64,000 nucleotides of DNA from an uncultured Spirochaetales bacterium (lineage in GTDB: Bacteria; Spirochaetota; Spirochaetia; Sphaerochaetales; Sphaerochaetaceae): assembly GCA_949297785.1 (NCBI GenBank), contig CASFTW010000015.1, positions 1 to 64,000 of the forward strand, given 5' to 3'. The notes under the pieces were generated by a model. The model was not told where the DNA came from. It ran no database searches and was given only the letters and a program-made list of their open reading frames with translations. Positions 36,598-62,034 of this stretch are shown in pieces; the stretch's first letter is position 1, and the number at the start of each line of letters is the position of its first letter. The translations under genes and the position numbers were made by a program.

Positions 36598-36703
36598 TCG
36601 AAATAATCTCTGCTGCTGTGAATTAAAATCTGATTGATTAGGTGCAAATAAAGTTCAGGTAAAGTCAAATGAAAGAAGCAAACATGGATGTCTGTGGTTC
36701 CTT

Positions 36704-36937
36704 ATGTTTGGATTCTGGTTCCTGCTTCTGATTCCATTCAAATGGGTTATCGGTGCAATTGTTTTCATTGTCTATGACTGGTGGATGGCTATTATCAAGA
36801 AGATGAAGGGTAAAGGCCATGTCTGGAAGTGTAAGGGATGGTTTGTCGGAACAAAGAAAATCTATACTGCGGACACAATTTCCGGGCATAATAGCAGCAA
36901 CCTAATCTGTAAGAATCCTAAACTGTTAAACAAGTAA
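36704..36937 (+). CDS. Possible small membrane protein
   Basis: A 77-aa frame with a strongly hydrophobic, aromatic N-terminus (about 28 residues beginning MFGFWFLLL) followed by a basic stretch KKMKGKGHVWKCKGW. No SD is visible before its ATG, and I do not recognise a family. The perfect hairpin after its stop (36945-36968) could end its transcript. It lies between trmD and the tRNA gene, so it may be a remnant of an earlier insertion. Confidence 0.4.
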   Translation: MFGFWFLLLIPFKWVIGAIVFIVYDWWMAIIKKMKGKGHVWKCKGWFVGTKKIYTADTISGHNSSNLICKNPKLLNK

Positions 36938-36944
36938 AAGAGGT

Positions 36945-36968
36945 TTGAGCCTCTGAACAGAGGCTCAA
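36945..36968. repeat. Perfect 10-bp hairpin before tRNA-Val
   Basis: TTGAGCCTCT, loop GAAC, AGAGGCTCAA. There is no T run on either side. A related hairpin with the same GAGCCTC core lies at 59027-59050 on the other side of the mobile element. Confidence 0.5.
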
Positions 36969-37003
36969 TGCAACATAAAAAGCAAGAATCTTCTCAAAAC
37001 CTA

Positions 37004-37032
37004 TTGCAAAGAGAAAATTAATCTGCTAATGT
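37004..37032 (+). promoter_or_regulatory. tRNA-Val promoter
   Basis: TTGCAA (37004-37009), 17-nt spacer, TAATGT (37027-37032), 21 bp before the tRNA 5' end. Confidence 0.55.
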
Positions 37033-37053
37033 TGCAAAGCAAACAAAAACTGA

Positions 37054-37125
37054 GGGCGGTTAACTCAGCGGGAGAGTGCCACCTTGACGTGGTGGAAGTC
37101 ATAGGTTCAAACCCTATACCGCCCA
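37054..37125 (+). tRNA. tRNA-Val (anticodon GAC)
   Basis: A full cloverleaf: acceptor GGGCGGT pairs with ACCGCCC, D-arm ACTC/GAGT, anticodon arm CCACC/GGTGG with loop TTGACGT (anticodon GAC), T-arm ATAGG/CCTAT with loop TTCAAAC, discriminator A. CCA is not encoded. The 3' part is duplicated at 58409-58438, showing that this gene is the integration site of the mobile element. The copy here stays functional because the element supplies an identical 3' end. Confidence 0.95.
37096..37125 (+). repeat. Left attachment repeat (attL core)
   Basis: The last 30 nt of the tRNA gene (AAGTCATAGG...ACCGCCCA) are identical to 58409-58438. The similarity extends imperfectly another 12 nt into the anticodon arm (10 of 12). 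Confidence 0.93.
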
Positions 37126-37127
37126 CT

Positions 37128-37276: not shown

Positions 37277-38512
37277 ATGGTTAGATTTTCGCTTTATAAG
37301 CGTCATCTTTCCGGAGGCGTATATTATTACGTCCGTTTCTGGAATCCTGAGAAGAAGAGCTATGATGCCGGAATAAGCATAGAGACTCTCAGGGCAAAAC
37401 TCGGTGATGACAGTATCAGAAGGATTGGAACAAGAAGTGCAGCTGCCGCTATTGCTGTCAGAGCTTACGAGGAAGGACTTACGAAGAAGGATAAGAAATC
37501 TCCTAACTTCATTGAGTATGTCCTTAACTTCTGGGACTTCGATAATTCATCATATGTCAAGTTGAAGAACAAGACCAGGAAGAACAGTATCGGTCGCGAT
37601 CACTGCCTCAATATGCTTGGAACCTTCAAACGGAATTTTATGCCAAGAATCAATCCATCCTTGAAGCTTTCAGAGATTACCCAGAGCGATATCGAAGCTG
37701 TTATTGTATCGCTCATCGATGAAGGCAAGATTTCCGAAGCTACAATAAACAAAGTCATCCTCTCTGTTCAGAAGCCCATCAATGAAGCATTCTCACGAGG
37801 AATGATAAAGGTAAATCCGATGCAGAACATCAGCATGCTTCAGAGAAACCAGAAGGACAGAGGTATTCCTACAAAGAGAGAAGTCGAAGCAGTCCTTGAG
37901 TATCTGAGAAAAGAGGGATTTGCAGGACGGATCAGCATGAAGATATATCTCGCTGTTGCGCTTGCCGCCACAGCTGGTATGAGACAAGGAGAAGTGCGTG
38001 CCCTGAGAAAAGAAACAGTCGAGTTCGTTGAGAATAATCTTGAGTATGAAGACCAGGCGATAATCACCGTCGGCGAAAGCTATGCCAAGCTGGATGGTTT
38101 TAAGTCTACGAAGGGAAAGAGAGTCAGGCATGTTCCTGTATCAAAGGCACTCGCAGAAGAGCTCATAAGGATGGCAGATTCGAATCCCTATGGTAATGGT
38201 CTTGTGTTCTGGTCTGAATCCTCTGCTGAAGCTCCTATGGCTGCAAGCTATCTTCTCAAGTATTACTATGCAGCTCTTGCATCTGTCGGTATCACTGAGG
38301 AGAAGAGAAAGGAAAGGAACATAGACTTTCATTCTCTCAGGCATTTCTTCAATTCGATGCTCCGTGGTCAGATTGATGACAGCAATCTACGTCTCATCGT
38401 AGGTCATCAGAGCGAAAGAATGAGCGACAACTATACGCATGAAGTTAGGGAAAGGCTTCTTCAGATTGGCAAGATTTCGAGCAACATCATTGTCTTCCCG
38501 AAATCATCTTGA
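37277..38512 (+). CDS. int: Tyrosine-family site-specific integrase
   Basis: A 411-aa phage-type integrase. The N-terminal third is a likely arm-binding and core-binding region; the catalytic domain spans residues ~190-400. Catalytic residues seen: Arg in AGMRQGEVRAL, Lys further on, HSLRHFF (HxxR), the second His in LIVGHQSERM, and the nucleophile Tyr in SDNYTHEV. It lies 151 bp inside the left end, reading inwards, as usual for tRNA-targeting elements. The SD GAGGAGG is strong but can be sequestered in a hairpin. Confidence 0.95.
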   Translation: MVRFSLYKRHLSGGVYYYVRFWNPEKKSYDAGISIETLRAKLGDDSIRRIGTRSAAAAIAVRAYEEGLTKKDKKSPNFIEYVLNFWDFDNSSYVKLKNKTRKNSIGRDHCLNMLGTFKRNFMPRINPSLKLSEITQSDIEAVIVSLIDEGKISEATINKVILSVQKPINEAFSRGMIKVNPMQNISMLQRNQKDRGIPTKREVEAVLEYLRKEGFAGRISMKIYLAVALAATAGMRQGEVRALRKETVEFVENNLEYEDQAIITVGESYAKLDGFKSTKGKRVRHVPVSKALAEELIRMADSNPYGNGLVFWSESSAEAPMAASYLLKYYYAALASVGITEEKRKERNIDFHSLRHFFNSMLRGQIDDSNLRLIVGHQSERMSDNYTHEVRERLLQIGKISSNIIVFPKSS

Positions 38513-43037: not shown

Positions 43038-45224
43038 CTATTTGACAGGAATATTTGAAAGCATATCAATCAATTCATTCTCGGATTTAAGCTTCCTTTC
43101 TTGTTTGTCATTTATGCAATAGATACTCCTTTCCTCACCTACATTATTCCATTCATTGTTATAGTATTCATCCAATGTAATAATCTTTCCTGTTGAAATT
43201 AGATAAAAGGTTTTATTTTTATATTTGAATCGAGTATAGTTCACACCACTATACCATTCTCCCAAAATAACCAAATGAGATATAGAGGAATCTGTACCGT
43301 TAGAAATACCATCGGCATCTATTAATGTGTAATACCCCTCATCAAGGTTTACTCCTCTATCATGCATTATCTTAAAGAAACGTGTATTAAGTTTGTTTTC
43401 AATAATATTTTCTTCTTCAGAAAACCACCCTCCGGCATCCCAATAGATGACATTGTTACAATGATATTTATGAAAACAAGGATGTCCATTAGGCCATTTC
43501 AGAGAATATTTTTCGCTATCCCATTGTTGAAACATCCATTTTATAAACCAGTCATTCTTTACTAAAGATGATTTTACCGCCAAAAAGAACCCGTCTGTTT
43601 CTTCTATTTCAATCTCATTAAGGGCATCTTCATCGGTTGCAGACAATAATCTGCTCACAAAGCATCTGTTATCATCAGTGTTAGCCTTTGCAAAGATCTC
43701 ACTTCTCCAATAGTTTCTGGATGCATCGAAGAAATAATTTTGTCCCCACCTCAGTGTGGAAAGCTTGATATATGCCTTTGCAACGACAACCCTATAGTCT
43801 TCGTTTAGCCCATTTTCAGTAAACCAAATTCCGAAGCTTTTCAATCTATTTGTGAACTCATTCCATGTATCATCAAAAAAGAGGAAATCTATTCTTCCAT
43901 CGGCAAAGGCTGTACTTTCAGCTTTCTCAATATCTTCCTTTTTTACATCTTTGTTCTTTATTGCAATAGCTTTTGTTCTTTCTTCCGCATACTGGGGAAT
44001 AGCACTATCTTTTTTACTATCATCACTTGCAAGATAGGATATGATTTCATTTGCTTTTGTATGAAGCTTGAAAATCAATTCAAGAGCTGATTCTGGCTCA
44101 CTTACATTCCATATGATATTAGCGCAAAATCTCATCCAGTCTTTCATCTGATCCACAGAAAAACTGTCACCAGCTGTAAGCAGATAAGAAAAAAGCAATG
44201 ATTTTTCTTTCTGGCCTTTTTTATGACATTCATTCATCTGTGGCTTTTTTGTATATACAGGACAAGTGTCCATAAAGTTATTCTGATATTTTTTTAAATC
44301 AAAATTTTTATCCCCCATAGCACTAAAGAGTTTTTCCAATGCTTTTACATAACCATCATCACCCATGGCTTTAAATGCTACATAGGCAGAAGAAGGAACC
44401 AAATCAGGCTCATAAAAATTAATTCTTTCTTTGTTTCCACTCCTTTTGTTCTCAATCATGGAGAAAGCGTCAAACATTATGCTAATGAGTCCCATAAAAT
44501 ATTCTTCATATTTCTCATGGTTGGCTCTAAAAAATTCCACGGCTATCGCATCTATACTCTTTGCTTGTTTTTCGTCTCCTTTTCCAAACCAGGATGATTT
44601 GAATCTTTCCAGTGAAGTCAGCCTCTTGCCCCTAGAATTCATCTTCCAGTAGATATCAGTTGAAAGCGAAATATCAGAAGGAATATAGAATACAATAGAG
44701 TTAAGTTTTTCTATCTCTTTTTCTGAAAGTGAAAAGCTTTGAATTTTCTCTCTTATAGCTTTTTTCATTTCCCGCATACCTTTTACAGAAGGATTTGATG
44801 AGTCATTCTTGTCTTCATTGCTTCTAATGCAGGATACGCAATAGGCCTCAGCTTCTGGCCTGTCGGCATATCTGAAATTTTCCAATAGCAATTCAGCATA
44901 CATTCCTTGTTCTCGACACAGCTCAGCATAAATCAGAAAGAGTGTGGTAAGACGCTGCTGCCCGTCAAATGGGAAGAACTCATTTCTGTCATTAACCCTT
45001 CCATAGATGAAATCAAGCTCCATTTTTTTCTTTGATTCATCTTTAAGAAACTGGAAAATATCATTAAGGAACATTTCTCTGACAAATTCAGAATGTTTAT
45101 CGCATCTGCCTTGTGCATATTCTCTCTGAAAATCAGGTATAACTATCTTACATTTCCTTATAATGTCTATGAGACTGACTGGTTCATTATTTCTAAAAAA
45201 AATCAACTCTGCAGTTATCAACAT
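43038..45224 (-). CDS. DUF262 protein without HNH domain
   Basis: A 728-aa protein. The N-terminal DUF262 domain is clear: IPDFQREYAQG, then FFPFDGQQRLTTLFLIY, then KMNSRGKRLTSLERFK. DUF262 belongs to the ParB/Srx-like NTP-binding fold used by GmrSD restriction enzymes, SspE and RloF. No DUF1524 HNH motif is seen in the C-terminal 450 residues, which are unassigned. It overlaps the upstream DUF262-DUF1524 gene by 32 nt, so the two probably work together. A role in anti-phage defence is inferred from the family and the setting. No SD is visible at the ATG. Confidence 0.85.
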   Translation of the reverse strand: MLITAELIFFRNNEPVSLIDIIRKCKIVIPDFQREYAQGRCDKHSEFVREMFLNDIFQFLKDESKKKMELDFIYGRVNDRNEFFPFDGQQRLTTLFLIYAELCREQGMYAELLLENFRYADRPEAEAYCVSCIRSNEDKNDSSNPSVKGMREMKKAIREKIQSFSLSEKEIEKLNSIVFYIPSDISLSTDIYWKMNSRGKRLTSLERFKSSWFGKGDEKQAKSIDAIAVEFFRANHEKYEEYFMGLISIMFDAFSMIENKRSGNKERINFYEPDLVPSSAYVAFKAMGDDGYVKALEKLFSAMGDKNFDLKKYQNNFMDTCPVYTKKPQMNECHKKGQKEKSLLFSYLLTAGDSFSVDQMKDWMRFCANIIWNVSEPESALELIFKLHTKANEIISYLASDDSKKDSAIPQYAEERTKAIAIKNKDVKKEDIEKAESTAFADGRIDFLFFDDTWNEFTNRLKSFGIWFTENGLNEDYRVVVAKAYIKLSTLRWGQNYFFDASRNYWRSEIFAKANTDDNRCFVSRLLSATDEDALNEIEIEETDGFFLAVKSSLVKNDWFIKWMFQQWDSEKYSLKWPNGHPCFHKYHCNNVIYWDAGGWFSEEENIIENKLNTRFFKIMHDRGVNLDEGYYTLIDADGISNGTDSSISHLVILGEWYSGVNYTRFKYKNKTFYLISTGKIITLDEYYNNEWNNVGEERSIYCINDKQERKLKSENELIDMLSNIPVK

Positions 45225-46818
45225 AACTTGTTTTCTTAATCGATTCTTCCAAGAATGTTTTTATTCTTACTTTGATTTCTTCGAGATACTTATCACACTC
45301 ATTCTTGAGCCAGAGCTCTCTATCCTCTGCAAGCGTGTAAGCATACAATGTGCCTTCAAACAGTTTTCTCCTCTCATCTGAATCTTTTAGTTTATCATCT
45401 AGCTTGAGGAGCTTATCCTTAACAGATGCATTGTTAAACGACGAATTCTGATTATGCTCAAGTAATACTAGGTTTCCAATTCCATTGATCCAGTTATCGA
45501 TCGTTGCATCGCTAGATACAAAAGTTCCTGTCTTTTTATCGAATTCCTGAGCTTGATCTCTTAAATCATATAGTAAGTTCTGGTATTCAAATTGATTGTG
45601 CTCAGACATGTATTTTTCTTTTGCTTTCTGAAGCAAAGTACAATCAATCTGATTTATTTGTTCTTCAAGTTCCTTTATTTCCTTTTCATTGAGCTGTACT
45701 TCGTTTTTTGCATGTATATGATCAAGAGTCCATCCACTGTTTCTTCTTACTTCCTGATATGTTTTAAAATCAAAGCGTGAATCTCTATTATTATAGAATG
45801 TCAGATTAAACAACAAAAGAATATTTTCAATCTTATCGTGATTGTCATAATAGTTTAGTTGTTCGAAAGATTCCAAATCTCCAACAACATTTTTTATTTC
45901 AAGATTTAGATCCTTATTAACAAGGGCTACAAGAAACTCATACTGATCAGTCCTGTTTTTACGATTAATAAGAAATCCAATTCTGTTATACGTATCAATG
46001 TCGTTATAGCAAGACTTCAATGCAGTAAATAAAGAATAGAGTTTATCAAATATATCTTTTGCAGAATGTTTTTCTGAAAGAGAAGAGAAAACATAGTTCT
46101 TATCTTTTTCCCAATTATTTTCAATTGCTCTTCTGTTTTTCTTATCGCCTGAAATTATTATCTCAACCAGTTCTGCAAGATAATCCATACGCGTTGCATA
46201 ATATCTTGGTGACTCTGGCTCAGAATTGATAAAGCAGAAGAAGAAATCATCTTCTAACAGCTTCTCCATTTCATTCCATTTGTCTCTTACATCCTCATAA
46301 GGAAGGGATGTGAAAAGCCATGCCTTGAGAAGCTCTGCAGAAGATAATGGAATCTTTCCTTCATTTACTCTGGTGAAAATTTTCCTAACTTCATCTTCAT
46401 CCCCTTCAACTATATAGCTGATGAAAAATGATCCTCTTACTTTCTGCATAAAACCGAGGCATTCTTCAGTGCCAAGCGATGACTTAAAATCATCAATCTG
46501 TTTTCTTGCCTTTTCTATATTATCTTTATCTATCTCATCGTGTGAGAAATTCTCAAATTGCTTGGTATCACCCAAGATTAGAAGAATAGTAGTCAATCTC
46601 TGTTGCCCATCAACTACATCATATAATTTATTATCTTTGTCCTTCTCACATAGAACCAAAGGCTGCAATGAATAATCTGTTTCCGATTCCTTGATATCCT
46701 TTAAAAGCTTTTTAACTTCGTTATCTGCTCTCCATCGATATCCTCTCTGATAAGAACGTGGAATAGCAAAATTATAATCTTTTAACTCAGTAATAGGCAG
46801 TTTATGTATTTGGGACAT
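45193..46818 (-). CDS. GmrSD-like DUF262-DUF1524 nuclease
   Basis: A 541-aa protein. The N-terminal DUF262 domain has IPRSYQRGYRWR, YDVVDGQQRLTTILLIL and RVNEGKIPLSSAELLKAW. The C-terminal part has DUF1524 HNH features: TLDHIHAKNE as the His-containing motif and GIGNLVLLEHNQNSSFNN before the end. GmrSD-type enzymes cut modified phage DNA after NTP-dependent activation; SspE acts in phosphorothioate-based defence. Neither partner system is here. AAAGGAG lies just before the ATG and a promoter is visible at 46848-46876. Confidence 0.88.
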   Translation of the reverse strand: MSQIHKLPITELKDYNFAIPRSYQRGYRWRADNEVKKLLKDIKESETDYSLQPLVLCEKDKDNKLYDVVDGQQRLTTILLILGDTKQFENFSHDEIDKDNIEKARKQIDDFKSSLGTEECLGFMQKVRGSFFISYIVEGDEDEVRKIFTRVNEGKIPLSSAELLKAWLFTSLPYEDVRDKWNEMEKLLEDDFFFCFINSEPESPRYYATRMDYLAELVEIIISGDKKNRRAIENNWEKDKNYVFSSLSEKHSAKDIFDKLYSLFTALKSCYNDIDTYNRIGFLINRKNRTDQYEFLVALVNKDLNLEIKNVVGDLESFEQLNYYDNHDKIENILLLFNLTFYNNRDSRFDFKTYQEVRRNSGWTLDHIHAKNEVQLNEKEIKELEEQINQIDCTLLQKAKEKYMSEHNQFEYQNLLYDLRDQAQEFDKKTGTFVSSDATIDNWINGIGNLVLLEHNQNSSFNNASVKDKLLKLDDKLKDSDERRKLFEGTLYAYTLAEDRELWLKNECDKYLEEIKVRIKTFLEESIKKTSYVDNCRVDFF

Positions 46819-55479: not shown

Positions 55480-55731
55480 ATGGCAAACTATTATTGCAAG
55501 TATTGTGGTCAGAAGTTTTCAAGTGTGAATTCTCTTACATCTCACAATTGTCCACGACACCCCAATGGGACATTTAAAGGTAACCATGAACTGTATGAAG
55601 GAAGTGAAAAGTCAAAATACACATGTAAATACTGCGGACAGATTTTTTCTTCTATCAGCAGCATGACCGATCATAACTGTCCAAGGCATCCTGATGGAAC
55701 ATTTAAAGGAAAACATTCTCCAGCGTTGTAA
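55480..55731 (+). CDS. Small protein with two zinc-finger repeats
   Basis: An 83-aa protein made of two near-identical units of ~41 residues, each with CKYCGQ, then SSxxSxTxHNCPRHPxGTFKG. The CxxC plus HxCxxH arrangement is a C2H2-like zinc finger. GGAGGT lies 5 nt before the ATG. It follows the SprT-like gene by 49 bp and may bind DNA, RNA or protein for that gene's product. Similar small fingers occur in gut bacteria; function unknown. Confidence 0.85.
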   Translation: MANYYCKYCGQKFSSVNSLTSHNCPRHPNGTFKGNHELYEGSEKSKYTCKYCGQIFSSISSMTDHNCPRHPDGTFKGKHSPAL

Positions 55732-56916: not shown

Positions 56917-56945
56917 TTGACGTTAGAGAGACAAGGCAGTAAACT
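56917..56945 (+). promoter_or_regulatory. Promoter of the RNA upstream of DUF3800
   Basis: TTGACG (56917-56922), 17-nt spacer, TAAACT (56940-56945). Predicted start near 56952, followed by the structured region. Confidence 0.6.
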
Positions 56946-56951
56946 TTAATT

Positions 56952-57058
56952 ACGACATCGGTAGATATCGTCAGCGGTGGGAACCAGTCGAACCGTCTAA
57001 GCGTATGTTAAGTACGTTGGCCACCGCGAAAAGCCACCTCGTTGAAAGGTGGTTTTTT
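56952..57058 (+). ncRNA. Structured RNA upstream of DUF3800 (candidate DUF3800 RNA motif)
   Basis: About 107 nt with its own promoter. GCGGTGG (56974-56980) pairs perfectly with CCACCGC (57021-57027), enclosing a 40-nt loop that contains a smaller stem GCGTA/TACGT (57001-57015). It is followed at once by the terminator hairpin. Several DUF3800 RNA motifs have been described from comparative genomics upstream of such genes; whether this is one of those classes needs a covariance search. Small RNA + terminator + protein also recalls type III toxin-antitoxin loci. Confidence 0.6.
57032..57058 (+). terminator. Terminator between the RNA and the DUF3800 gene
   Basis: AGCCACCT pairs with AGGTGGTT (8 bp, one G-U) and is followed by T6. 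It would end most transcripts 28 nt before the DUF3800 start codon, so the protein would be made only by read-through. Confidence 0.8.
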
Positions 57059-57085
57059 CTTTTTTCTTTTTCTGAGGAGATATGG

Positions 57086-57781
57086 ATGAACATCTACGTG
57101 TTTTCTGATGAAAGTGGAATATTCGACTACAAACATCACGAATGGTTCGTGTATGCAGGTATTGTCGTCATCGGAAAACAGGAAATGGATATGCTTTCCC
57201 GTAAGTTTCTGGCACTTGAAAAGAAGTTACGACAGAAAACAAAATACAGAAAGATGTCGGAACTGAAAGCAAAATATCTTGATGAGAAGGATAAGAAAAA
57301 GCTTCTTGGAGTATTCTGTGAAACATATAAATTCGCAATAGCGATTAAACTGAATCATCTGGATCTTAAGAGGGTATTTCATAATCAGAAGTCAAAACAG
57401 AATTATATGGACTTCGCATACAGGTTTATATTAAGAAAAGCTTTTGAACACATGATTGGAAGAGGGTCTTTGTTCCCAGATGAAGCTTTTGATCTTATTA
57501 TCAATGAAGACAATCATCATATAGCAGAGTGTGATTTACAACAGAAGTCGGACACGATTTATAAAGAATTCAAGGAAGGAACATTCAGGACAACATTTGG
57601 TGTATTGTTCCCACCTCTTTTTGAAAATCTGAGGAAAGTGGAAATTACGCTCCGAGATTCTGTAAACAGTGCACTTGTCCGCGGTGCAGATATTGTAGCC
57701 AACACGGTTTACACCTCTCTTCTGAAGAATGAGCTTGATGTTCTGGAAAATGATGATTTCTATATTGAGTTTTTACCTTAA
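57086..57781 (+). CDS. DUF3800 protein
   Basis: A 231-aa protein starting MNIYVFSDESG, the hallmark of DUF3800, whose predicted fold is RNase H-like with the Asp and Glu of this motif as likely acidic residues. Later motifs YRFILRKAFE, LIINEDNH, and ALVRGADIVANTVYTSL fit the family, which ends with an Asp-containing helix. GGAG lies 6 nt before the ATG; the longer frame from 57005 runs through the terminator and is rejected. Function is unknown, but members sit in mobile and defence regions, often with an RNA motif upstream as here. Confidence 0.88.
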   Translation: MNIYVFSDESGIFDYKHHEWFVYAGIVVIGKQEMDMLSRKFLALEKKLRQKTKYRKMSELKAKYLDEKDKKKLLGVFCETYKFAIAIKLNHLDLKRVFHNQKSKQNYMDFAYRFILRKAFEHMIGRGSLFPDEAFDLIINEDNHHIAECDLQQKSDTIYKEFKEGTFRTTFGVLFPPLFENLRKVEITLRDSVNSALVRGADIVANTVYTSLLKNELDVLENDDFYIEFLP

Positions 57782-57789
57782 AAGAAACT

Positions 57790-58081
57790 ATGCCGAATGG
57801 TTCAGAAATAACTCGCGAACAGTTCGCGAATAGCTCGCAAATAACTCGCGAGTCATTTAATAGATCAGATGTTGTTCCTAAGAAAAAAAGTTTCAAAGGA
57901 GGCCGTAAAAGCTGCTATCGTTTCATATCTAAGAAATAATTCCAAAGCTACATATCAGGAAATTGGTGATGAGGTGGATATAAAGAAGACAACAGTTTTC
58001 AAATATCTAAGCGAATTAGTGTAGGCAAGAATAATAGGAAGGATTGGAAATAATAAAAGCGGATACTGGAAAGTTCTTTAA
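57790..58081 (+). pseudogene. Remnant of an AlbA_2/AAA_4-type winged-helix regulator
   Basis: The first frame reads MPNGSEITREQFANSSQITR, whose DNA carries the repeated unit AACTCGCGA. A shift of one base near 57896 continues into EAVKAAIVSYLRNNSKATYQ and TTVFKYLSELV, then a TAG, then IGNNKSGYWKVL and the final stop. The last part is the winged-helix end typical of AlbA_2/AAA_4 (ATP-dependent helicase-like) regulators. One frameshift and one stop, with most of the protein missing. Confidence 0.65.
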
Positions 58082-58242: not shown

Positions 58243-58408
58243 ACTTGTGATACCGTAATGACAAGAAAGCGGAGATAATGCGTACTAAGGCATGCAAACA
58301 TCTCTCTTGCATAAAGTGTTAAGGGATGTTAAATTAAAGCAAAGAATGGTAAGAAGAGCGTTGTAATTTCTTGTATTAAAAGAGATTATAAGCGTTTTGA
58401 CGCGGTGA

Positions 58409-58438
58409 AAGTCATAGGTTCAAACCCTATACCGCCCA
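58409..58438 (+). repeat. Right attachment repeat (attR core), displaced tRNA-Val 3' end
   Basis: Thirty nt identical to the 3' end of tRNA-Val at 37096-37125. Only the T-arm and acceptor half are present, so this is not a second tRNA. It marks the right end of the element. Confidence 0.93.
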
Positions 58439-58447
58439 ACATATAAG

Positions 58448-58486
58448 AAGCCTTGTAACTGGTCGGTTGCAAGGCTTATTTTTTGT
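58448..58486 (+). terminator. Original terminator of tRNA-Val
   Basis: AAGCCTTG pairs with CAAGGCTT and is followed by ATTTTTTG. It lies 10 bp after attR, where the tRNA gene ended before the element inserted. Confidence 0.8.
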
Positions 58487-58656
58487 TTTCTTATATGGTT
58501 CATGCATAAAAGTATTGGGGTGCGTGGGGATTAGCTTAGGAGAAGCAGAAGTCAAATCAAGAACATGATAATTAAATAATAGACTAAGAGTACTAAATAA
58601 AAAGGTTTCCATGCCTCATTGTTGTAAGTAGACAAAAAACAAAAGGAAGGAAACCC

Positions 58657-58929
58657 ATGGATCAATTTATCACATCATTGTTGTCTTTGCCAGAGTGCGA
58701 GTATACAGAAATCTGTCAGATGATTGAGAGAAGGATGGATGGCATAACTTCAAGGGCAATACATCCCATCTCCAATGGCCCACTTGAAGGTACTAACAAT
58801 ATGATCAAGACATTGCATAAGCAGTCTTATGCTTTCACAGATACACACTACTTCTTCCTTAAGATCTGGGATGCGTATGGACTGATTCCTAAGACAGGAA
58901 GGTATAAAGCCCAACAAAATTGTACATGA
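58657..58929 (+). pseudogene. Internally deleted ISL3-type transposase
   Basis: A 90-aa frame. The second half matches the C-terminus of ISL3-family transposases: AIHPISNGPLEGTNNMIKTL, then YAFTDTHYFFLKIWD; the Glu in PLEG is the likely third catalytic acid. The first ~16 residues (MDQFITSLLSLPECEY) look like the normal transposase start, after which about 300 residues with the first two Asp are missing. AAAGGAAGG precedes the ATG. It is probably a non-functional deletion derivative. Terminal inverted repeats were not found; 58490-58656 and 58930-59026 hold nothing else. Confidence 0.7.
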
Positions 58930-59026
58930 GCCTTCTATTTTATCTTGATACTTAAGAACATCAACAATGCTTATACATTTCAGTTCCTGTATGTAAACTG
59001 CCTTCTATATCCTGTTTTAAATCGTT

Positions 59027-59050
59027 CTGAGCCTCCAGAGAGAGGCTCAG
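59027..59050. terminator. Hairpin after topA
   Basis: CTGAGCCTC, 6-nt loop, GAGGCTCAG, 5 bp past the topA stop. There is no T run, so it may be a weak terminator or an mRNA-end stabiliser. It resembles the hairpin at 36945-36968. Confidence 0.5.
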
Positions 59051-59055
59051 TGGGA

Positions 59056-62034
59056 TCACTCTGTTTTCTTCTTTATGATTTCAACGGCTTCTTCAAGGGT
59101 GAGACCGTCAACGGACTTCTTATACTTTGATGGAAGGGCAATGTTGTCTGTACCCCACTTGAGGTAGTAACCGTAACGGCCGTTTGCAGCTGCGACATCC
59201 TTTCCTTCATACTGGCCGAGAACAACAGGCTGAATGGATTTTATTTCCTCTGCTTTCTCAATTGCCTTAATTGCATCTTCAAGAGAAATACTGCCGGCAG
59301 ACCTCTGGCTGATGCGGTAATTGCCGTCATTCCATTTTAGGTAATAACCGTAGCGGCCTGAGACCAGCTGGATATCGCTGCCTTTGTACTGGCCAAGAAC
59401 ACTGTCCGGCTGGTTCGCTTTCTCGATCTCCTGCACGGCTTCTTCAAATGTAATGCTGTCCGTACCCTTGCTCATACGGTAGTTCTTTCCGTTCCATTTC
59501 AGATAATAGCCGTAGCGGCCGTTATGAAGAGTTATGTTCTGACCATTGTATGAGCCGAGAACAGTACCGTCCTTCGCTGCCGCAGTTTTGACGGAAGCAC
59601 CCGCCTGACAGAGATTCTCAGCCTCCTCCTGAGTCAGCGTCTCGCTGTCGGTTCCCTTCGGGATTCTGACAGAAACATCTCCCCATTTCAGATACGGACC
59701 GAACTTTCCCTTTCTCAGGCACAACGACTTTCCTTCATAATCATCAAAGGTCTTCAGATCACTTCCTGTCTTTCTGCCTATCAGGGCGAAGGCACTCTCC
59801 GCACTCATATTGTATGGAACTCCGTAAACCCGGTAGTTTGAATCCTTGTACTTCAGATAGAAACCGAAAGGACCGCTGTTGAGGACAGCTTCATTGCCTT
59901 CTTCATCTTTTGCCACGACAAGTGGAAGGGAGAAAAGGTATTCAATCTCGTCAATGCTGTAGTCTTCTGCCTTTTTCTTGCCCTTTGGCACATTGCAGGT
60001 TTTGTCGCCCTTCTGCCAGTATTCGCCCCGGCTTCCCTTTCTGAGAACTATCTCATTCTCATCAGATGGTGTCTGCGGAGAAACCGCGTTGCTGATAAGA
60101 GATGCGATATCATCATCACTCATAAGACCCGGAAGCTCGTATGGCGGAATGTTCACGAGAAGAGTCTTTCCGTCCTCCTTTTTGAGGTTTGTCTGGATGT
60201 ATGTGCCATAAGGACCGATCTTTATGCTGTAGGAACATTCACTGCCATCACCCAGCTTTGCCTTCCCAGTGAAATGAGGGAAAGAAAGAGTCTTGTAATC
60301 ATCTTCGGATGCTCTTGCAATGGCAAGCATGTCCTTGAGCCCGACGTGCTCACCATCTCCGTAATAGAACTCGTTGAGATAAGTCAGGCTGTCCTCTTCC
60401 CCGTTTGAGATTTTATCAAGTTCATCTTCCATTCTGGAAGTGTAGGAATAGTCGACAAGCTGGCTGAAAGCCCTGTTCATGCAGGCATTCACGGCGAATC
60501 CCGTGAAAGTCGGGATCATGACCCTGTCCTGTTCCTTCACATAGCCCCTGTCAAGAAGCGTCGATATGATCGTGGAATAGGTACTGGGCCTTCCGATACC
60601 CTGTTCCTCAAGTTTCTTTATGAGACTTGCTTCGTTATAGCGGTTTGGGGGTGTCGTTATATGTTCGCTGTTTGTGAGAATGGCATCATGGAGCTTCTCA
60701 CCTTCACTCAGCACAGGAAGCTTGACACCCTTGTCATCTTCATCCTTGTCATCGGCATACACCTTCAGATAGCCGGCAAAAAGCACAGATGTGCCGGAAG
60801 AAGAGAATATGAAATCACCATTGTGAATCTTGACCGTAGTTGTGCTCTTTCTGGCATTTGCCATCTGGGTTGCCAGCGTTCTCATCCATATGAGTGTATA
60901 AAGAGCAAGCTCCTTGCCTTTCAGGCCGGTCGCCTCGGGACGGCGGAATACATCTCCGGCCGGACGGATGGCCTCATGGGCTTCCTGCGCATTCTTGCTC
61001 TTATTGCGGAACTGACGCTCAGAAGGACTGAGATAATCCTGCCCGAACTCATTCAGTATTTCATGGCGCGCAGCCTTTATGCATTCATCGGAAAGGTTCA
61101 CGCTGTCAGTACGCATATAGGTTATGAAGCCGTTCTCGAAAAGATTCTGGGCAAGCCTCATGGTCTCCTTTGAGGAAAGTTTCAGACGGCTGGAAGCGGC
61201 CTGCTGAAGAGTTGATGTCGTGAAAGGCGCCTGCGGCGATGAAACATTCTCCTTGCATTTCACGCTGATAACTTCATATACAGGATTCTCATTGCACAGT
61301 GCGATGATCTTATCACCGTCTTCCTTTGAAAGAAGTCTTGCACGTCCGTTGAATTCACCTGTTGTGGAATCGAAATCCTTGCCTGTTGCAATCCTCTCGC
61401 CCCATGCACTTTCAAGTGTGGCACAGAAGGAAGAGAAATCCGCTTTTATATCATAATATGAAGCAGCCTTGTGATGCAGGCGGTCAAGCTCCTTCTCCAC
61501 GATGAAACGCAGACCGACGGACTGAACACGGCCGCCGGAAAGCTTCTTGTTTGAAAGCTTCTTCCACAGAAGAGGAGAAACCTCGTAACCGAAAAGACGG
61601 TCGATTATCCTTCTATCCTCCTGTGCTTTGACAAGGTTCATGTCTATGTCCCTTCCCCCTTCCAGCGCGCTCGTTATGGCAGAACGGGTAATTTCATGGA
61701 ACACCATTCTCCGGTAGGGAACACGCGGCTTCAAAAGCTGCAGCAGATGCCAGGAAATTGACTCGCCCTCACGGTCCTCATCAGTCGCAAGCAGCAGCTC
61801 GCTGCTGTCCTTCAGTTTCTTTCTGAGGTCCTGTACAAGAGATTCCTTGCCTTCTGTTATTTCATACTCGGGCTCGAATCCGTGCTCGATATCAATGGCC
61901 ATGCGGTCCTGCGGAAGATCCCTGACATGCCCCTTGCTGGCAACAACCGTGTAATTTGACGGAAGATATTTCTTTATGGTCTGCGCCTTGGTGGGAGACT
62001 CTACGATTACAAGCGATTTCTTCTCCTGACTCAT
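59056..62034 (-). CDS. topA: DNA topoisomerase I
   Basis: A 992-aa type IA topoisomerase that relaxes negative supercoils. The Toprim domain opens with VIVESPTKAQTI and includes TDEDREGESISWHLLQLL. The active-site Tyr is in FITYMRTDSVNLS. The C-terminal ~350 residues hold about six Topo C-terminal repeats (for example GRYGYYLKW three times, GKFGPYLKW, GPFGFYLKY) in place of zinc fingers. AAGGA lies 7 nt before the ATG. The gene belongs to the chromosomal backbone right of the mobile element. Confidence 0.96.
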   Translation of the reverse strand: MSQEKKSLVIVESPTKAQTIKKYLPSNYTVVASKGHVRDLPQDRMAIDIEHGFEPEYEITEGKESLVQDLRKKLKDSSELLLATDEDREGESISWHLLQLLKPRVPYRRMVFHEITRSAITSALEGGRDIDMNLVKAQEDRRIIDRLFGYEVSPLLWKKLSNKKLSGGRVQSVGLRFIVEKELDRLHHKAASYYDIKADFSSFCATLESAWGERIATGKDFDSTTGEFNGRARLLSKEDGDKIIALCNENPVYEVISVKCKENVSSPQAPFTTSTLQQAASSRLKLSSKETMRLAQNLFENGFITYMRTDSVNLSDECIKAARHEILNEFGQDYLSPSERQFRNKSKNAQEAHEAIRPAGDVFRRPEATGLKGKELALYTLIWMRTLATQMANARKSTTTVKIHNGDFIFSSSGTSVLFAGYLKVYADDKDEDDKGVKLPVLSEGEKLHDAILTNSEHITTPPNRYNEASLIKKLEEQGIGRPSTYSTIISTLLDRGYVKEQDRVMIPTFTGFAVNACMNRAFSQLVDYSYTSRMEDELDKISNGEEDSLTYLNEFYYGDGEHVGLKDMLAIARASEDDYKTLSFPHFTGKAKLGDGSECSYSIKIGPYGTYIQTNLKKEDGKTLLVNIPPYELPGLMSDDDIASLISNAVSPQTPSDENEIVLRKGSRGEYWQKGDKTCNVPKGKKKAEDYSIDEIEYLFSLPLVVAKDEEGNEAVLNSGPFGFYLKYKDSNYRVYGVPYNMSAESAFALIGRKTGSDLKTFDDYEGKSLCLRKGKFGPYLKWGDVSVRIPKGTDSETLTQEEAENLCQAGASVKTAAAKDGTVLGSYNGQNITLHNGRYGYYLKWNGKNYRMSKGTDSITFEEAVQEIEKANQPDSVLGQYKGSDIQLVSGRYGYYLKWNDGNYRISQRSAGSISLEDAIKAIEKAEEIKSIQPVVLGQYEGKDVAAANGRYGYYLKWGTDNIALPSKYKKSVDGLTLEEAVEIIKKKTE

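Follow-up and report, generated by a model that had tools for sequence, protein, structure and literature searches.

A DUF3800-I RNA and an adjoining DUF3800 protein of predicted RNase HII-like fold form a near-obligate pair on mobile DNA

Introduction

DUF3800 proteins are found paired with named RNA families, which run from DUF3800-I to at least DUF3800-XI, and the RNA motifs in question were reportedly described in a 2017 paper. Our search of the literature, outside of which that motif description fell, returned nothing on the function of DUF3800-I.

Among systems in which an RNA controls a protein, the AbiF-RCd22 pair of Clostridioides difficile relies on a prophage RNA that neutralises a toxin by binding to it (PMC12373285). 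DUF3800 proteins themselves have been encountered as accessories in some class 2 CRISPR loci (PMC10910872, PMC12669027), and a DUF3800 protein distinct from the one studied here is reported to have an RNase H fold in which the catalytic residues are rearranged (PMC10910872).

Here, we describe a DUF3800 locus located in a 64,000-nucleotide stretch of DNA from an uncultured Spirochaetales bacterium (GenBank assembly GCA_949297785.1, contig CASFTW010000015.1, positions 1 to 64,000; hereafter, the window), in which a first-pass annotation made from the letters alone had singled out a structured RNA lying between a promoter and a terminator, ahead of a DUF3800 gene. The RNA, the protein and their association were known before; new to this work are the predicted fold of the protein, the existence of both gene orders, the near-obligate pairing, the mobility of the module and the divergent branch to which the window's copy belongs.

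Results

The RNA of the window is a divergent member of the DUF3800-I family

The features of the locus and of the island that carries it are collected in Table 1. The RNA matched the Rfam model of DUF3800-I over its full length (model positions 1-115), above the curated threshold, and the adjoining gene belongs to Pfam family DUF3800; by their sequences, RNA and protein represent a divergent branch of these two families. The mature transcript probably extends from about 56952 to 57062, as deduced from the positions of the -10 box and U-tract. Folding (z-score of -3.3) reproduced the ~107-nt RNA with a perfect 7-bp closing stem and an inner stem that the first-pass annotation had drawn; the terminator that it had placed behind them was confirmed as well. 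The most conserved letters of DUF3800-I RNAs are UAAGCG, at the base of the inner hairpin; a CAG/CUG base is frequent in P1 of other members and is replaced in the window RNA. In agreement with the same annotation, a search of the window RNA for tandem repeats found none besides the U-tract. Nor was any guide-like hypervariable unpaired stretch of more than ~4 nt found within the modelled RNA, segments outside the model not being covered by this search, and a guide RNA of the OMEGA type was rejected given that the modelled RNA holds no long variable unpaired stretch.

Table 1. Features of the RNA-DUF3800 locus and of its island (window coordinates)
Feature	Position	Strand	Basis and remarks
tRNA-Val(GAC), attachment gene of the island	37054..37126	+	last 42 bp (37084-37125) form attL
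Tyrosine integrase of the island	37277..38512	+	PF00589
Two GmrSD-type (DUF262) proteins, island cargo	43038..46818	-	DUF262
Sigma-70-type promoter of the DUF3800-I RNA, TTGACG-17-TAAACT	56917..56945	+	consensus match (9/12), register kept in relatives; -35 TTGACG 56917-56922, 17-nt spacer, -10 TAAACT 56940-56945
DUF3800-I RNA (Rfam RF02969)	56946..57068	+	covariance model, 57.0 bits (cut-off 44.2)
P1, 5' hairpin ACGAcAUC-ggua-GAUaUCGU	56952..56971	+	folding, comparison with members
P2, closing stem around junction (UAAGCG) plus inner hairpin	56974..57027	+	folding, covariation; closing stem GCGGUGG/CCACCGC, 56974-56980 with 57021-57027; inner hairpin 57000-57018
Intrinsic terminator and U-tract, separating RNA from gene	57028..57068	+	12-bp stem 57028-57058
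Shine-Dalgarno GAGGAG of the DUF3800 gene	57074..57079	+	sequence; separate from the terminator
DUF3800 protein of 231 aa (RNase HII-like fold predicted), with DESG motif, ELK, D142 and D202	57086..57781	+	PF12686 and AlphaFold2 model
attR, copy of the tRNA-Val 3' end	58397..58438	+	42-bp repeat, two mismatches

A separate covariance model, based on 24 mostly viral sequences, none of them belonging to the branch of the window, detected the window RNA at 32.7 bits (E 2e-6 in a search of 408 kb); every one of its matches was either a DUF3800-linked or an orphan RNA locus. Across 50 distinct RNAs, standard pairs occupied 97.4% of the 1394 pair cells and 26 of 28 base pairs were altered on both sides; none of 500 shuffles was as good, and sliding the pairings lowered the proportion to 31-59%. 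The 50-RNA alignment was fitted to the covariance model, and a plain MAFFT alignment of a less divergent set, used as a model-free check, gave the same picture, with 95.7% of the pairs kept and 21 of 29 pairs changed on both sides. Applied to the divergent set, MAFFT with RNAalifold recovered one helix only; the less divergent sequences, most of them viral, yielded a model that overcame this. On this comparative evidence the RNA is a genuine conserved structure, and the two inquiries suggested by the first-pass annotation, namely a search with the Rfam DUF3800 models and a test of covariation in homologues, returned a match above threshold in the one case and strong covariation in the other.

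The promoter assigned to the RNA was, taken singly, at chance level, six comparable sites being present in the region versus 7.1 expected. A site matching at least 9 of the 12 consensus positions was nevertheless present in the 50 nt at the same position in 78% of the 50 related RNAs, as against 12% of shuffles, and nearly all of these sites shared one register. It is thus through the conservation of its position and register, rather than as a single site, that the consensus-like promoter proposed at first has held up.

The DUF3800 protein is predicted to adopt an RNase HII-like fold

As anticipated by the first-pass annotation, the gene following the terminator encodes a DUF3800 protein, PF12686 (48.2 bits, cut-off 21) being the sole Pfam family to match it at E<=0.01. 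Comparison with the homologous locus L007 yielded a dN of 0.027 and a dS of 0.62 for the gene, and a handful of changes in the core of the RNA, substitution patterns which indicate that both protein and RNA are under purifying selection. The window protein lacks the TATNG motif, as do those of a few other loci; the joint loss of this motif and of the CAG/CUG base of P1 in the window's branch was probably a single event, and is offered as a lead only.

An AlphaFold2 model computed with 38 relatives in the alignment reached a pLDDT of 92. Its nearest solved folds were RNases HII/HIII (1eke_B, Z 13.1, 170 residues aligned, 3.0 A), with Argonaute PIWI domains and RNase HI ranking lower, a result that agrees with the RNase H fold of the other DUF3800 protein (PMC10910872). 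The residues found to be invariant were D8, S10, G11, G25, E59, K61, D109, D142, P177, S192, D202, N206 and the last residue, P231; E9 is replaced by D in one clade. From motif and strand position, D8-E9-x-G11 would occupy the place of the DE-x-G motif of RNase HII. No homology to solved structures was detected at the sequence level by phmmer or profile searches, the RNase HII family (PF01351) gave no Pfam match and an hhalign probability of 0.4%, and the protein matched neither the Pfam profiles of ToxN/AbiQ-type toxins or Abi_2 nor the PADLOC defence models. Based on the model, the DUF3800 protein is probably a metal-dependent nuclease, its activity being a prediction.

RNA and protein are almost always found together

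The DUF3800-I RNA was present in 16 of 196 related genomes, one copy (G090) having been skipped by the fast filter used in this search and recovered separately. Wherever these genomes encode an intact relative of the protein (ten cases), the RNA adjoins it, as it does in the 38 loci with enough flank among the 41 identified in IMG/VR, a count in which L116 was taken as a duplicate of L115 and in which L107, L114 and L117 end at contig ends. Within the clade surveyed, the pairing of RNA and protein is thus close to obligate.

Such pairing, maintained in either gene order, could also be expected if the DUF3800 nuclease worked as a ribonucleoprotein that depends on its RNA, the latter being a cofactor, scaffold or activating phage sensor and not an inhibitor, in defence against phages or in competition between elements. 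The RNase HII-like fold predicted for the protein, the occurrence of DUF3800 proteins as accessories to certain class 2 CRISPR loci (PMC10910872, PMC12669027) and the position of the module close to prophage ends would suit this proposal as well. Against it, the hypervariable stretch that a guide would require is missing from the modelled RNA, and RNA without intact protein was found in 13 loci, seven of them without DUF3800 nearby and six with a broken gene, where it would be useless for an enzyme subunit, unless these copies are relics. We consider this explanation the main alternative, though a rather unlikely one. Conversely, no locus with testable flank had an intact protein without RNA. 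RNA-only loci are what RNA-antitoxin systems would leave behind; the 13:0 asymmetry is nonetheless weak by itself because the gene is a five- to six-fold larger mutation target, and it was not significant once this target size was allowed for (estimate ~0.1).

Orphan RNAs had kept their structure in G000 (contig C3), G088 and G086, and had not clearly done so in G071, G015, G100 and C41. In the case of G088 (locus L140), no DUF3800 gene of the window's clade was found near the orphan RNA, and a near-threshold DUF3800-XI match was observed about 1.1 kb away from it (1677-1725 and 2857-2977). The genome from which the window originates (G000) itself harbors two more DUF3800 genes, which belong to another branch (L070, 7098-7865 on C3, and L006, 2089-2136 on C20): a DUF3800-XI RNA (48.6 bits) lies immediately ahead of one, and a weak DUF3800-XI match (24.8 bits) occupies the same place at the other. 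With DUF3800-I and DUF3800-XI in one genome, DUF3800 proteins seem to have acquired more than one kind of RNA partner.

The RNA is a separate gene

Most loci have the RNA immediately ahead of the DUF3800 gene, an arrangement that would be compatible with control of DUF3800 expression in cis by the RNA, as a 5' attenuator or leader, all the more so as no GGAGG other than that in the 3' arm of the terminator is close to the ATG in loci L012, L018 and L010. In nine loci (L073, L074, L076, L108, L109, L111-L113 and L115), however, the gene comes first and the RNA follows 15-126 nt behind it, and most of those tested had a promoter match of at least 9/12 in the usual place. This gene-first arrangement is found in one phage/plasmid clade, with carriers that include Streptococcus phages (Javan110 and Javan73), a plasmid of Enterococcus faecium and a number of IMG/VR proviruses. 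Since the RNA of gene-first loci has its own promoter, it is a separate gene and not merely a leader, and a role restricted to that of a cis-acting leader is ruled out by these loci; the conservation of structure and junction goes, in addition, far beyond what an attenuator would require, making control in cis a most improbable account of the module. In RNA-first loci, the end of the modelled RNA overlaps the start codon or is separated from it by 17 nt at most, leaving no room for a second promoter, such that the gene would be reached by read-through of the terminator.

Two of the gene-first loci, those of Streptococcus phages L073 (5619-6681) and L074, share a further trait in that the DUF3800 gene overlaps the gene of a Cro/CI-type regulator by 8 bp, the RNA coming after; this regulator is a possible extra protein partner. 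In L108 (4851-4928) and L113 (2328-2411), a skipping-rope RNA (RF02924) was found ~20 nt behind the DUF3800-I RNA.

The module is carried by mobile elements

The att repeats, the integrase and the empty sites of two relatives, G001 and G010, in which the tRNA directly joins the sequence beyond 58438, delineate an integrated island of ~21 kb (37126-58438, or 37084-58438 with attL). The RNA-DUF3800 pair occupies the far end of this tRNA-Val island, attR lying 616 bp beyond the DUF3800 gene. Other cargo includes a WYL regulator, ankyrin proteins, a Fic protein and, at 55480-55731, an 83-aa ORF with two C2H2-like zinc fingers, which are unusual in bacteria. A short repeated CGCGAA-type motif behind the DUF3800 gene (57790-57860) looks like a gene remnant with an HTH tail, and the remnant of an ISL3 transposase (58657-58929) is situated just outside attR. 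Relative to G010, the segment consisting of the tRNA, the island and its flank is inverted between trmD and topA (36598-37054 and 58439-59056): the 5' side of the tRNA faces trmD in the window and topA in G010, reflecting either an inversion or a misassembly.

Relatives of the module are carried by the satellite phage Javan632 (in its last 1.4 kb), by prophages, where they are found beside the integrase, and by plasmids. Among viral copies, 20 of 30 had a contig end no more than 4 kb away, as against 9.6 expected, near-duplicates and possible assembly ends being included in this count. Location at attachment ends and next to integrases might point to a module that processes nucleic acids on behalf of its own mobile element, helping it to replicate, integrate or excise, and that acts neither as a toxin nor in defence. 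The carriers are, however, unrelated (islands, tailed prophages, a satellite and plasmids), and most related genomes are without the module, as for cargo. Service to the element is, in our view, very improbable.

Discussion

The function that we favor for the pair, and hold to be moderately probable, is that of an RNA-antitoxin module, resembling type III systems and AbiF-RCd22, whose effector, of RNase HII fold, would serve either toxin addiction or abortive infection. Driven by a promoter of its own, the ~107-nt RNA would be produced in excess and end at the intrinsic terminator, leaky read-through of which would yield a little DUF3800 mRNA. The folded RNA would then bind whole to the DUF3800 nuclease and hold it inactive, in the manner of ToxI or RCd22, the latter being an experimental precedent of comparable layout (PMC12373285). 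Loss of the RNA or arrest of its synthesis, be it through loss of the element or through the shut-off of transcription by a phage, would free the nuclease and stop growth, with the mobile element being stabilised or the phage infection aborted as the outcome. Nuclease activity, toxicity, binding, neutralisation and triggering are deductions in this scheme, as opposed to observations. Several features speak against it: the likeness to RNase HII is at the level of the fold only, the RNA is devoid of repeats, and the gene-first order is atypical. A distinctly unlikely variant of the ribonucleoprotein proposal would have the RNA direct or switch a nuclease of RNase HII-like fold, perhaps upon sensing the RNA or DNA of a phage, and the module would then represent a family of defence nucleases under RNA control, unrelated to CRISPR and OMEGA systems.

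Should the RNA indeed be an antitoxin and its partner a toxin of RNase HII fold, the pair would add a new toxin fold to RNA-neutralised systems, beside ToxN and AbiF. A nuclease-like protein, a separate RNA gene, near-obligate pairing and cargo positions in phages and islands together make the function of DUF3800 testable.

With the DUF3800-I/PF12686 loci already described, the module of the window shares the RNA structure and the adjoining DUF3800 gene. RNase HII offers the nearest solved fold and a DE-x-G motif that ends strand 1 alike; the window protein differs from it in giving no Pfam or profile match to it, in having D202 in a helix and in having an RNA partner. Like TnpB/IscB OMEGA systems, the module associates a nuclease-fold protein with an adjoining RNA on mobile DNA, but no guide segment was found in its modelled RNA and its protein is much smaller. 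Type III toxin-antitoxin systems (ToxIN, AbiQ, TenpIN and CptIN) have the same order of promoter, RNA, terminator and gene, read-through being inferred in our case. The window RNA differs from theirs in being without repeats, the protein is RNase HII-like and not ToxN-like, and some relatives are gene-first, which is unusual for type III; membership of the defined type III families was rejected on account of the missing tandem repeats and ToxN-type Pfam match. The resemblance to type III loci noted in the first-pass annotation stands, therefore, for the separate RNA gene, the terminator, the pairing, the nuclease fold and the mobility, but not for the repeats or for a ToxN-type protein. AbiF-RCd22, finally, differs in that its protein is of the Abi_2 type, related to the ancestor of Cas13, and in that RCd22 has two copies of its motif versus one here, and resembles the module of the window in that a prophage-borne structured RNA and its terminator are found beside a putative nuclease (PMC12373285).
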